This document shows, in pieces, positions 32,823 to 37,476 of a DNA stretch of 43,123 nucleotides; the stretch's first letter is position 1; every line of letters starts with the position of its first letter. The translations under genes and the position numbers were made by a program. The DNA is from Egibacter sp. (GTDB taxonomy: Bacteria > Actinomycetota > Nitriliruptoria > Euzebyales > Egibacteraceae): the NCBI GenBank assembly GCA_003553795.1, contig PWFH01000184.1, positions 1 to 43,123 on the forward strand. The letters are read 5' to 3'. A model generated the notes under the pieces. The model saw only the letters and a list, made by a program, of their open reading frames with translations. It did not search any database and was not told the DNA's origin.

Positions 32823-33629
32823 GTGCTGCTCGACGGCAAGCGCTTGCTCATCACCGGCGTGCTCACCGACGCCTCGATCGCCTTCCACGTCGCCCGCCAC
32901 GCCCAGCAGCAGGGCGCCGAGGTCGTGCTCACCGGCTTCGGCCGGGGCCTGCGCATCACCGAGCGCATCGCCGGGAGGCTGCCCGCGCCCGCCGACGTCC
33001 TCGAGCTCGACGTCACCGACGAGGCCCACCACGCCGCGGTCGCCGAGGACCTCGCCGCCCGCTGGGGCGCCCTCGACGGCGTCGTCCACGCGGTCGGCTT
33101 CGCGCCGCCCTCCGCGCTCGGCGGCCGCTTCCTCCAGACGCCGTGGGCCGACGTGGCCACCGCCCTCGAGGTGTCGACGTACTCGCTGGCCGCGCTCGGG
33201 CGCACGACCGCGCCGCTGCTCGCCGAGGCCGGCGGCGGGGCGATCGTCGGGCTCGACTTCGACGCGCAGGTGGCCTGGCCCGCCTACGACTGGATGGGCG
33301 TGGCCAAGGCCGGGCTCGAGTCCGCCGCGCGCTACCTCGCCCGCGACCTCGGCCCGCAGGGCACCCGCGTCAACCTCGTCGCCGCGGGGCCGCTGAAGAC
33401 CACCGCGGCGCGCTCCATCGAGGGCTTCGAGATGTTCGCCGAGTGGCACCGCCGCGCGCCGCTCGGCTGGGACGTCACCGACCCCGAGCCGGTCGGCCGG
33501 GTCGTCTGCGCCCTGCTGTCGGACTGGATGCCGGCGGTCACCGGCGAGATCGTCCACGTCGACGGCGGCACGCACGCGATGGGCGGCGACGTGCGCACCG
33601 AGGACGCGCCCGAGGGCGGCGGGGGGTAG
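32823..33629 (+). CDS. fabI: Enoyl-ACP reductase, InhA type (FabI)
   Basis: A 268-aa NADH-dependent short-chain reductase that completes each fatty-acid elongation round. It resembles mycobacterial InhA closely: GKRLLITGVLTDASIAFHVA, EVVLTGFGRGLRITERIAG, DGVVHAVGFAPPSALGG and NLVAAGPLKTTA. The catalytic pair is Tyr155 and Lys162 (PAYDWMGVAKAGLE). HRRAPLGWDVTDPEPVGR matches the substrate-side region. The C-terminus has a Gly/Glu tail of about 15 residues beyond InhA. The GTG at 32823 follows GAGGAGGAG. Whether it works on short or very long chains is unknown. It ends two bases from the convergent SulP gene. Confidence 0.93.
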   Translation: MLLDGKRLLITGVLTDASIAFHVARHAQQQGAEVVLTGFGRGLRITERIAGRLPAPADVLELDVTDEAHHAAVAEDLAARWGALDGVVHAVGFAPPSALGGRFLQTPWADVATALEVSTYSLAALGRTTAPLLAEAGGGAIVGLDFDAQVAWPAYDWMGVAKAGLESAARYLARDLGPQGTRVNLVAAGPLKTTAARSIEGFEMFAEWHRRAPLGWDVTDPEPVGRVVCALLSDWMPAVTGEIVHVDGGTHAMGGDVRTEDAPEGGGG

Positions 33630-33631
33630 CG

Positions 33632-35314
33632 CTAGGCGTCGGGCCGCTCGCGGGCGAAGGCCTCCACCGCAACGTGGTTCGTGGTGAAGACCCGCGCGCC
33701 GTCGAGCAGGCCGTAGGCCTCGAGGAGGGCCCGCTCGTGCGTGCGGGCGCGGCTGAAGGCCACGACGACGCCGCGCCCCGTGAGGGCGTCGAGGCCCTGC
33801 TCGAGGGCCTCGGCTGCGGTGGGGTCGATGTCGGAGACCGCCTCGAGGTCGATGACGACCCAGCCGACCCTCTCGTCCTCGGCGACCTCGAGGAGCATGT
33901 CGCGGGCGGTCTCGGCGTTGGCGAAGAACAGCGGTCCGTTCGGTCGCAGCACCCGCAGCGCGGGGTCGAGGACGTCGTCGCTGTCGGCGCTGAAGCGCTG
34001 GGAGGAGGAGGCCTCGGGCGGCGCCCCGAGGTCGTCCCAGCCCACCGCGGCGGCTCGACGCACCATGTCGAAGGCCGCCACGAGCGCTGCGAGCACGAGG
34101 GCGGGCAGCGGACCGAGCAGCAGCACGCTCGCGGCGCAGCCCATCGCGATGAGGAAGTCACTGCGGCGCACCCGGGCGAGCCGCCGCAGCGTCGGCACCT
34201 CGATGAGGCGCACCACGGCGTTGGCGATGACGCCGGCCAGCGCAGCGGAGGGGATCGCGGCGATGAGGTCGGTGGCCAGCGCCCCGGCGAGCAGCGCCAT
34301 GCCCGCCGAGACGACCATCGCGAGCTGGCTCGAGGTCGCGGTGCTCCTGAGCGCCGCGGTGCGTGAGGCGCTCGGCCCGATGGGCATCGCGCCGCTGGCC
34401 GAGGCCGCGATGTTCGCGACGCCGAAGGCGAGGATCTCCTGATTGGGCTCGATCCGCTCGCCGTTGCGCTGGGCGGCGTCCTTGGCGATCGCGAGGCCCT
34501 CGGCGACGATGACGACCGAGATCGCCAGGGCGAGCGGTGCGAGGGCGACCCACGCGTCGAGCGGCAGCAGGGGGAACGTCAGCGGCGGCAGGCCGGCGGC
34601 GGCCTCGCCGAGCACCTCGACGCCCTCGGGCTCGAGCCAGGCGACGAGCGCCCCGAAGCCGGCGAGGGCGACGAGCGCGGCGGGCACCTGTGGGGTGAGG
34701 CGTCCGAGCAGGCGCACGGAGAGGATCGTGCCGACGCCGATGGCCACGGAGGCCCACGAGGCCTGCGGCAGGGCCAGGACGAGCTCGACCGCCTCGGCCA
34801 GCCAGCTCTGCCCGTCGATGTCGACGGCGAGGATCGTGTGCACCTGCGAGGTGAGGATCTCGATCGCGAGGCCGGCGATGAAGCCGGTGAGCACCGCCTT
34901 CGAGAGGAAGCGCACGAGGGCGCCGAGCCTCAGCGCCCACGCGACGAGCAGGAACACCCCGGTCAGCAGGGCAACGCCGAGCGCGGCGTCGGCGGGGGTC
35001 ACGCCCGCGCCGACCACCGGGATGAGCCCGGCGGCCAGCAGCGCGACGATCGCGGCGTCGGGGCCGGCGACGAGCCGGCGCGAGCTCGTCAGCAGCGAGA
35101 AGGCCACGAGCGGGACGACACTCACGTAGATGCCGACCTCGGGGGGCAGCCCGACGATCGTGGCGTAGCCGATGTTCATGGGCACGGCGAGCGCGACGAG
35201 GCTCACCCCGGCGAGGGCCTCCCCGGGCCACTGACGCCGGTCGACCCCGCGCAGGCCGTCGCCGAGCCGCGGCAGCGGAGGCAGCCGGCCACCCCTCGAG
35301 CCGCCCGCGCTCAC
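33632..35314 (-). CDS. SulP-family anion transporter with STAS domain
   Basis: A 560-aa membrane protein. The transport domain (about residues 25-400, 10-14 helices) starts with WPGEALAGVSLVALAVPMNI, where the usual PQ of SulP helix 1 is replaced by VPMNI, followed by GYATIVGLPPEVGIYVSVVP. NQEILAFGVANIAASASGAMP and SASRTAALRSTATSSQLA are the conserved helix 8-10 region. The C-terminal STAS domain contains VGWVVIDLEAVSDIDPTAAE. SulP proteins carry sulfate, bicarbonate or other anions; which one is not clear. The GTG at 35314 follows GAGGAGG. It lies 13 bases downstream of the CYTH-CHAD gene and is probably cotranscribed with it. Confidence 0.88.
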   Translation of the reverse strand: MSAGGSRGGRLPPLPRLGDGLRGVDRRQWPGEALAGVSLVALAVPMNIGYATIVGLPPEVGIYVSVVPLVAFSLLTSSRRLVAGPDAAIVALLAAGLIPVVGAGVTPADAALGVALLTGVFLLVAWALRLGALVRFLSKAVLTGFIAGLAIEILTSQVHTILAVDIDGQSWLAEAVELVLALPQASWASVAIGVGTILSVRLLGRLTPQVPAALVALAGFGALVAWLEPEGVEVLGEAAAGLPPLTFPLLPLDAWVALAPLALAISVVIVAEGLAIAKDAAQRNGERIEPNQEILAFGVANIAASASGAMPIGPSASRTAALRSTATSSQLAMVVSAGMALLAGALATDLIAAIPSAALAGVIANAVVRLIEVPTLRRLARVRRSDFLIAMGCAASVLLLGPLPALVLAALVAAFDMVRRAAAVGWDDLGAPPEASSSQRFSADSDDVLDPALRVLRPNGPLFFANAETARDMLLEVAEDERVGWVVIDLEAVSDIDPTAAEALEQGLDALTGRGVVVAFSRARTHERALLEAYGLLDGARVFTTNHVAVEAFARERPDA

Positions 35315-35327
35315 GCCGACGACCTCC

Positions 35328-36788
35328 TCACCGGTGCTCGGCGGCCACCGTCAGGGCGGCGTCGGCCGCGGCGCGACGCAGCTCGGAGAGCGCTCCGGCG
35401 TCGAGGCGCAGCCAGGCGCGGCGCACCCGCCGCAGCGCGGTGCGGGCCCAGCGGTCGGCGCGCAGCGAGCCGGCGCGGGCCGCGAACGCCACCGCGGGGT
35501 CGCCCTCGCCCTCGGCGAGGTCGGCGAGGGTCGCGGCGAGCAGGACCGCACGCCGGGCCTCGTCGAGCGCCGCGCGGGCCTCCCGGGCCTGCTCGCGGCG
35601 GCGCCCGGCGACCTCCCCGTCGCCGTCGAGCCCGGCGAGGAGGTCGACCGCGGCGGCCACCTCGGCGGTGCCCGACGCCCTCGCGGGGTGGGTGACGTCG
35701 AGGCGGGTGAGGCTGCGGCCACGCACACGCAGGGGGCGCAGCAGTGCGGCGGCGTCGACGTCGAGGCGGCGGGGCGCCTCGACGCGGGCGGTCCGCAGCG
35801 CCTCGACGGTCTCGCGGTAGCGGGCGGCATCGAGCCCCGCGCTCGCGCGGGCCGCCGCGCCGGCCTGCCAGGCGGCGAGGGCCTCGTCGACCCGCGGGTG
35901 GGATGGGACGTCGACGCCGGCGAGCCACGCCACGGCGGCCTGGCGGTCGGCGAGCTCGCGCACGTCGGGCTCGAGCGCGGCGAGCGGGATCACGAGCGCC
36001 CGTGTGGCGTCGGCTGCGCCGGCGTCGCCGGCGACGGTGGCGAGGGCGCGCAGGCTCGCGAGCGCCGTGGCGAGCTCGCCGGCCTGCCCGCCGGTGCGGT
36101 AGGCCACGTCGCCGGCGACGAGGTCGGCGTGGGCGTGGCCGAGGGCAGCGGCGAGATCGCCGGCGGCGGGGTCCCTCCTCGGCGCGGCATGCGCCGGCGG
36201 CCGGTGCGCCGGCTCGCCGAGGACGGCGAGCACCTTCGGCCCGGCGGTCGCCGGCTTCGCGCCGGCGACCTCGAGGGCGCTGACGAGCGCGGCGACCTCC
36301 GCGAGCCCGCCCCCGGGTCCCGCCTCGACCTCGAGCTCGCGCCAGCGCACGGGCTCGCCGCCGGCGCCAGCGGCCTCGACGGCGTCGTCGCAGACCTCGG
36401 CGACGATCTGCCCGTCGCGGCGCAGGAGGCTGCGTCGCCTCACGGTGCGCACCGTGGCGACCGGCCGCAGGGCGGCGCGGCCTAGGAGCGCGGCGACGGC
36501 GGCGAGCGCCTCGGCGGGTGGTGCGTCCTCGGCGCCGGGGAAGCGCAGCTCGGCGCGGCGCAGCGTCGAGGCGTCGACGGCCCCGAGTGGGAGCTTGACC
36601 TGCCATTCGCCCTCGCGGTGGCGCAGCGTCGCGCCGGCCCGCGCCAGGCGCAGGTCGTCGCTGTCGAGGTAGCGGGCGAGGAGCGTGCGCTCCTCGGGCC
36701 CGTCGGCGCTGGCCCCGGGCAGGGCGGCGGCGAGATCGGGCACGACGACGTCGGGGCCGGCGACGAGCTTCGCTTCGAGCTCCTCCAT
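35328..36788 (-). CDS. CYTH-CHAD domain protein
   Basis: A 486-aa protein. The CYTH domain at the N-terminus starts with the ExExK signature at residues 3-7 (ELEAKL) and continues with YLDSDDLRLARAGATLRHR and WQVKLPLG. The CHAD domain (about 235-486) is helical and rich in Arg, His and Ala. CYTH enzymes act on inorganic triphosphate, and CHAD helices bind polyphosphate, so a role in phosphate or polyphosphate handling is likely. The ATG at 36788 has no ribosome binding site and lies eight bases after a minus-strand TAGGAT, so the mRNA is probably leaderless. It is divergent from aat with only 34 bases between the start codons. Confidence 0.87.
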   Translation of the reverse strand: MEELEAKLVAGPDVVVPDLAAALPGASADGPEERTLLARYLDSDDLRLARAGATLRHREGEWQVKLPLGAVDASTLRRAELRFPGAEDAPPAEALAAVAALLGRAALRPVATVRTVRRRSLLRRDGQIVAEVCDDAVEAAGAGGEPVRWRELEVEAGPGGGLAEVAALVSALEVAGAKPATAGPKVLAVLGEPAHRPPAHAAPRRDPAAGDLAAALGHAHADLVAGDVAYRTGGQAGELATALASLRALATVAGDAGAADATRALVIPLAALEPDVRELADRQAAVAWLAGVDVPSHPRVDEALAAWQAGAAARASAGLDAARYRETVEALRTARVEAPRRLDVDAAALLRPLRVRGRSLTRLDVTHPARASGTAEVAAAVDLLAGLDGDGEVAGRRREQAREARAALDEARRAVLLAATLADLAEGEGDPAVAFAARAGSLRADRWARTALRRVRRAWLRLDAGALSELRRAAADAALTVAAEHR

Positions 36789-36796
36789 GCCCGCGG

Positions 36797-36802
36797 ATCC
36801 TA
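36797..36802 (-). promoter_or_regulatory. Putative -10 element for a leaderless CYTH-CHAD mRNA
   Basis: Minus-strand TAGGAT ends eight bases before the ATG at 36788. Its -35 region would fall on the start codon of aat. Confidence 0.55.
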
Positions 36803-36809
36803 GCGGCGG

Positions 36810-36815
36810 TACCGT
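36810..36815 (+). promoter_or_regulatory. Putative -10 element for a leaderless aat mRNA
   Basis: TACCGT ends seven bases before the aat GTG at 36823, and its -35 region would fall on the CYTH-CHAD start codon. Confidence 0.55.
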
Positions 36816-36822
36816 CGAGCCC

Positions 36823-37476
36823 GTGGCCAGCCCACCCGCAGCCTTCCCCGACCCGTCCCGGGCGCCCGCCGACGGCCCGCTGGCCCTCGGCGGGGACCTG
36901 TCGGTGGGCACGCTGCTGTCGGCCTACCGCCAGGGGATCTTCCCCTGGCCGCTCGACGAGGACCTGCTGAGCTGGTGGTGCCCCGACCCGCGCGCAGTGC
37001 TACCCCTCGACGGGCTCCACATCTCGCGCAGCCTCGCGCGCACGCTGCGCCGCGGCGCGCTGTCGACGACGGCCGACCGCGACTTCGCCGGGGTGCTCGA
37101 CGGCTGCGCCGACCGCGACGTCACCTGGATCACCCCCTGGCTCGCGCATGCCTACCGCCGGCTGCACGCCGCCGGGCACGCCCACAGCATCGAGGTGCAC
37201 GACGAGGACGGCGCCCTCGTCGGCGGCCTCTACGGGGTCGCCATCGGCGCGGCCTTCAGCGCCGAGTCGATGTTCCACCGCGTCGACGACGCCTCGAAGG
37301 TCGCCCTCGTGGGACTCGTCGAGCGCCTGCGGCGCGGCGGGTTCACCCTCCTCGACGTCCAGCTGCCCACCAGGCACCTCGCGAGCCTCGGCGCCGTGGC
37401 GGTGCCGCGGAGGGCCTTCCTCACCCGCCTCGCCGAGGCCCGCGAGCGCACGGCGACCTGGTCGGGCGCGACGTGA
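36823..37476 (+). CDS. aat: Leucyl/phenylalanyl-tRNA--protein transferase
   Basis: A 217-aa enzyme that adds Leu or Phe from aminoacyl-tRNA to N-terminal Arg or Lys, creating an N-degron. Family motifs: FPDPSRAPADGPLALGGDLS, AYRQGIFPWPLDEDLLSWWC, PDPRAVLPLDGLHISRSLAR, ITPWLAHAYRRLHAAGHAHS, GGLYGVAIGAAFSAESMFHR and LDVQLPTRHLASLGAV. No ribosome binding site precedes the GTG at 36823, which sits seven bases after TACCGT. In bacteria these N-degrons go to ClpS-ClpAP; no clp gene is in the window. A lipoprotein gene overlaps the end by four bases. Confidence 0.94.
   Translation: MASPPAAFPDPSRAPADGPLALGGDLSVGTLLSAYRQGIFPWPLDEDLLSWWCPDPRAVLPLDGLHISRSLARTLRRGALSTTADRDFAGVLDGCADRDVTWITPWLAHAYRRLHAAGHAHSIEVHDEDGALVGGLYGVAIGAAFSAESMFHRVDDASKVALVGLVERLRRGGFTLLDVQLPTRHLASLGAVAVPRRAFLTRLAEARERTATWSGAT

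Follow-up and report, generated by a model that had tools for sequence, protein, structure and literature searches.

The question raised by this locus is how two genes that diverge from a very short gap are each transcribed, and whether the closeness of their putative promoters ties their expression together. In the window (the whole stretch of DNA that was analyzed, 43,123 nucleotides in length), the gene for a CYTH-domain protein on the minus strand (35328..36788) and aat on the plus strand (36823..37476) are separated by a divergent intergenic gap of 34 bp (36789..36822), with the ATG of the CYTH gene at 36788-36786 on the minus strand and the GTG of aat at 36823-36825 on the plus strand. 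This gap contains two putative -10 hexamers. TAGGAT, in the context CGCTAGGAT, occupies 36797..36802 on the minus strand (read from 36802 to 36797) and ends 8 nt before the CYTH ATG; TACCGT, in the context CGGTACCGT, occupies 36810..36815 on the plus strand and ends 7 nt before the aat GTG. The two boxes do not overlap and have 7 bp between them. These coordinates and spacings, reported in a first-pass annotation of this DNA, proved correct on re-reading of the sequence. Its description of the promoters as face-to-face was mistaken, because transcription would run outward, which makes them back-to-back. We consider it quite probable that the gap harbors two separate -10-only leaderless promoters, each for its own gene, that the two genes are expressed independently at ordinary firing, and that the layout stems from gene-order history. 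In such a scenario, transcription would start on the start codons themselves, on opposite strands, at predicted positions 36788 (minus) and 36823 (plus) that are 35 bp apart. The housekeeping sigma factor would read each TANNNT box, and translation would proceed without a Shine-Dalgarno (SD) site.

What the two genes encode bears on any functional link between them. The identity of aat is firm, since its 217-aa product, a leucyl/phenylalanyl-tRNA-protein transferase, matches Pfam Leu_Phe_trans at 1.6e-64 and scores 184.1 bits against TIGR00667 in NCBIfam, above the cut-off of 143.55. Two observations concern aat elsewhere: the matches in G011 (L014) and G008 (L023) were each reported with one in-frame stop (TAG and TGA, respectively), which could be an alignment edge, and the single genome bin G002 has two aat matches, L016 (C218) and C96:4220-4864, with similarities of 64% and 63%, which would reflect either duplication or contamination. 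The other gene had been annotated as CYTH-CHAD, of which only the first half stands. Its 486-aa product matches the Pfam CYTH domain (PF01928, 5.5e-8) over residues 1-156, a match beginning at residue 1 that backs the start codon, and an ExExK-type motif (ELEAK) can be read from the sequence near the N terminus. Searches of the full-length protein and of residues 180-486 gave no CHAD match at E ≤ 10. L053, a homologue from the related genome G029, carries CYTH together with CHAD, the latter at 5.4e-53, and its HQMRVATRRLR stretch aligns to a part of the window protein that contains no histidine. The C-terminal half of the CYTH protein is thus possibly a degenerate CHAD region, as judged from this alignment. 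The label "polyphosphate-related" is weak because this half is apparently degenerate and CHAD is undetected.

Start-adjacent hexamers of this kind turn out to be common in this genome. We analyzed stretches of it, 420 kb in a first sample and 644 kb after more were added, the larger sample yielding 547 usable genes; genes were called with a simple codon-usage gene finder, and some of the starts will be wrong. In the 644-kb sample, TANNNT is found 6-10 nt before the start codon at 42 of 547 starts, about tenfold more than the 4.25 expected, with counts of 8, 16, 9, 6, and 3 at 6, 7, 8, 9, and 10 nt, respectively, and near zero at 0-5 nt and again beyond 10 nt up to ~25 nt. Both hexamers in the gap, at 7 and 8 nt, fall on this peak, and both carry a CGN prefix, the combination CGNTANNNT being observed 16 times against 2.4 expected. 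SD matches of at least 4 bases accompany only 4 of the 42 hexamer-bearing starts, versus 336 of the 505 other starts. The single-contig genome of another family member, G015, displays a peak at the same distance (17 of 319 starts, 3.0 expected). Leaderless -10-type starts are an ordinary gene class here, accounting for some 7-8% of genes in this rough tally, and hexamer-type starts serve unrelated genes throughout the genome. At least two further close divergent pairs with both hexamers exist in the sample of this genome, on C113 (76 bp) and C155 (79 bp), and in G015 at 69 bp and 122 bp. The tightest pair in the sample, on C190, was considered as a stronger parallel and was not counted; its plus-strand start codon is lost in the sister genome G001. 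On C190, the genes for a MoxR-type ATPase and a TetR-type regulator are 24 bp apart (L058:15521-15544; G000 C190:35521-35544), and the gap between them contains GTACTGTAC, which is unchanged in G001 while the apparent GTG of the regulator has changed, and which is possibly an operator or a shared -10.

A second line of evidence comes from the sister genome. Among the relatives searched, only G001, which belongs to the same genus and matches contig SLNF01000270.1, a Nitriliruptorales MAG, also holds the CYTH-aat pair. Both start codons are kept, and the gap (L039) is again 34 bp long, with five substitutions and none in the 12 hexamer bases. Aligning the gap in relatives had been proposed as a check, and the sole relative with the pair does keep both hexamers. 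The probability that five random changes spare both hexamers is 0.095; fourfold-site divergence in aat between the two genomes is 0.246, compared with 5/34 in the gap, and simple arithmetic gives a chance of ~0.03 that all 12 bases would be spared if they changed at the fourfold-site rate. Because only one relative keeps the pair, this conservation is weak, consistent support rather than proof. When 61 related genomes were searched for the conserved core of the gap, it was present in this genome and G001 alone, with a single further match, carrying three mismatches, in G040. Together, the genome-wide TANNNT statistics and the sister genome lend support to the proposal of the first-pass annotation that the gap contains two leaderless promoters.

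The two sites do not look equally strong. The CYTH site has a leave-one-out score of 11.86, fourth of 27 leaderless-like starts, and its similarity to the genome's own set makes it likely that the CYTH promoter is real as a leaderless promoter. The earlier claim that neither gene has an SD site holds for aat, which has a 3-base match only, and needs amending for the CYTH gene, which has a 4-base match, AGGA. This lies within TAGGAT itself, where it could instead act as a weak SD. The claim that each -35 region falls on the start codon of the other gene is right as geometry: with a 17-bp spacer, the place of a would-be CYTH -35 (CACGGG, 36820..36825, minus strand) covers the aat start codon, and that of a would-be aat -35 (ATGCCC, 36787..36792, plus strand) covers the CYTH start codon. 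It carries no weight for function, since neither hexamer is -35-like and no -35 consensus is present around the 27 leaderless-like starts of the 420-kb sample.

The alternative that survives best, although we think it unlikely, is that only the CYTH promoter is real, TACCGT being a chance match and aat being transcribed, with a leader that lacks an SD, from a start farther upstream within the CYTH gene. The aat site does score in the lower part of the 27 starts (7.14), and TACCGT belongs to a weaker class, TANNGT, which is just 2.5-fold enriched in the 644-kb sample (6 observed, 2.4 expected). However, TANNGT with a CGN prefix, as found at aat (CGNTANNGT), was observed four times against 0.4 expected, TACCGT sits at a spacing of exactly 7 nt on the genome-wide peak, and it is unchanged in the sister genome. 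Furthermore, no sigma-70-like promoter turned up when 36600-37000 was scanned with a strict consensus, and elsewhere in the family aat has a stronger hexamer, TACGCT, 6 nt before the GTG (in G002, G003, and G015). On this sequence evidence, the aat promoter is probably real as a leaderless promoter.

How such a layout might have arisen is suggested by gene order. In 9 of 23 tabulated genomes, aat lies on the same strand as fabI and within ~30 nt of its end, or overlaps it. The fabI gene, which encodes an enoyl-ACP reductase, is directly upstream of aat in many relatives; in the window (fabI at 32823..33629, plus strand), two reversed genes intervene, giving the order fabI (+), SulP (-), CYTH (-), aat (+). 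The SulP-family transporter gene, whose product has a STAS domain, lies downstream of the CYTH gene (33632..35314, minus strand; alternative start at 35206). A start-adjacent -10 (TANNNT) is found at aat in none of the nine genomes in which aat abuts fabI (≤30 nt from its stop), versus 5 of the 14 in which it does not; these genomes are related, and the counts are not independent events. The 14 include the two genomes of the window genus, whose short loci show no fabI and whose intervening genes are known from the separate gene-order comparison. In G001, where SulP does not intervene, the stop codons of the CYTH gene and fabI overlap (TAG/CTA, near L078:134-137), and in G010, which belongs to another genus, a CYTH C terminus is convergent beside fabI, both orders being read at contig ends (the stretches compared were window 32823-36822, L078:1-200, and L055:1-300). 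Gene order points to history as the probable source of the layout: a reversed CYTH gene would have come to lie between fabI and aat, with SulP gained or lost afterwards. With the reversed gene between them, aat is no longer behind fabI and would be transcribed from a leaderless promoter of its own, next to its start, within the short gap.

Does the proximity of the two promoters make them compete? With predicted starts 35 bp apart, it is physically likely that only one polymerase can bind at a time, and RNA polymerase on both promoters at one instant is probably impossible. From this steric argument, the first-pass annotation proposed an exclusive switch tying polyphosphate and N-degron functions, in which polymerase on one promoter shuts the other, so that a cell would express one gene or the other. 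We found no support for it, and a switch of this kind is highly improbable. In Escherichia coli, strong activation of one promoter in an overlapping pair can lead to repression of its partner (PMC12825309). However, in the same study, bidirectional promoters with starts 10-23 bp apart had basal activity too weak to compete, which held for all five promoters tested, and repression of one side was seen only when the other was strongly activated (PMC12825309). Moreover, no -35, structure, operator, regulator site, or regulator gene is evident at the locus; the start type is found at unrelated genes, where similar divergent pairs recur; no functional link between the CYTH gene and aat is apparent; and CHAD is not detectable. 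DNA folding revealed no unusual structure in the gap (z 0.95). A dyad operator made of GGATCC and GGTACC was set aside, these being two unrelated 6-base palindromes that do not form one site. A milder form of coupling, in which steric competition would link aat and CYTH expression negatively when some condition strongly activates one of them, seems to us only marginally less improbable; if true, it would broaden the rules of promoter competition known from E. coli to include leaderless promoters. At the low firing rates that are usual, the CYTH gene and aat would be expressed independently. Finally, that neither hexamer is a promoter, both being accidental matches in a gap that genome compaction has kept short, can be given very little credence: TANNNT is a loose motif and its conservation comes from one sister genome, but both hexamers lie at the peak spacing (shuffling the bases of the gap placed TANNNT 6-10 nt ahead of both starts in 2.5e-5 of trials) atop a tenfold genome-wide enrichment, and there is no convincing SD that would point to leadered transcripts.

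Two independently firing leaderless promoters, the reading that we favor, make this an ordinary arrangement for a compact actinobacterial genome, with the two promoters placed back-to-back, and it reveals no new regulatory device. Its value is that it clearly illustrates, in an actinobacterial order that has been little studied, how leaderless -10-only starts can be packed back-to-back and how a gene can have a promoter of its own next to its start when a reversed gene parts it from its usual neighbor. The closest known parallel is the leaderless genes of Actinobacteria, in which TANNNT precedes the start codon by ~12 bp (PMC3160421), and the promoters of Mycobacterium tuberculosis, which are reported to have a TANNNT -10 box, frequently preceded by CGN, and to lack a -35 motif (PMC3898074). 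The two starts described here have the spacing of TANNNT expected of this class and no independent SD, and they share with it the hexamer, the absence of a -35, the CGN prefix, the general scarcity of SD sites, and a high-GC actinobacterial host. What differs is that two such starts are placed back-to-back within 34 bp, and closely juxtaposed divergent promoters are themselves common in M. tuberculosis (PMC3898074). The other parallel is the bidirectional promoters described by Warman, Grainger, and colleagues (PMC10268837, PMC12825309), which likewise have divergent starts close enough for polymerases to clash. These are defined by divergent starts 7-25 bp apart (PMC10268837) and have shared or overlapping -10 bases, whereas in this gap the predicted starts are 35 bp apart and the -10 boxes are separate, without reciprocal overlap, which places it outside that definition and among closely packed leaderless starts.
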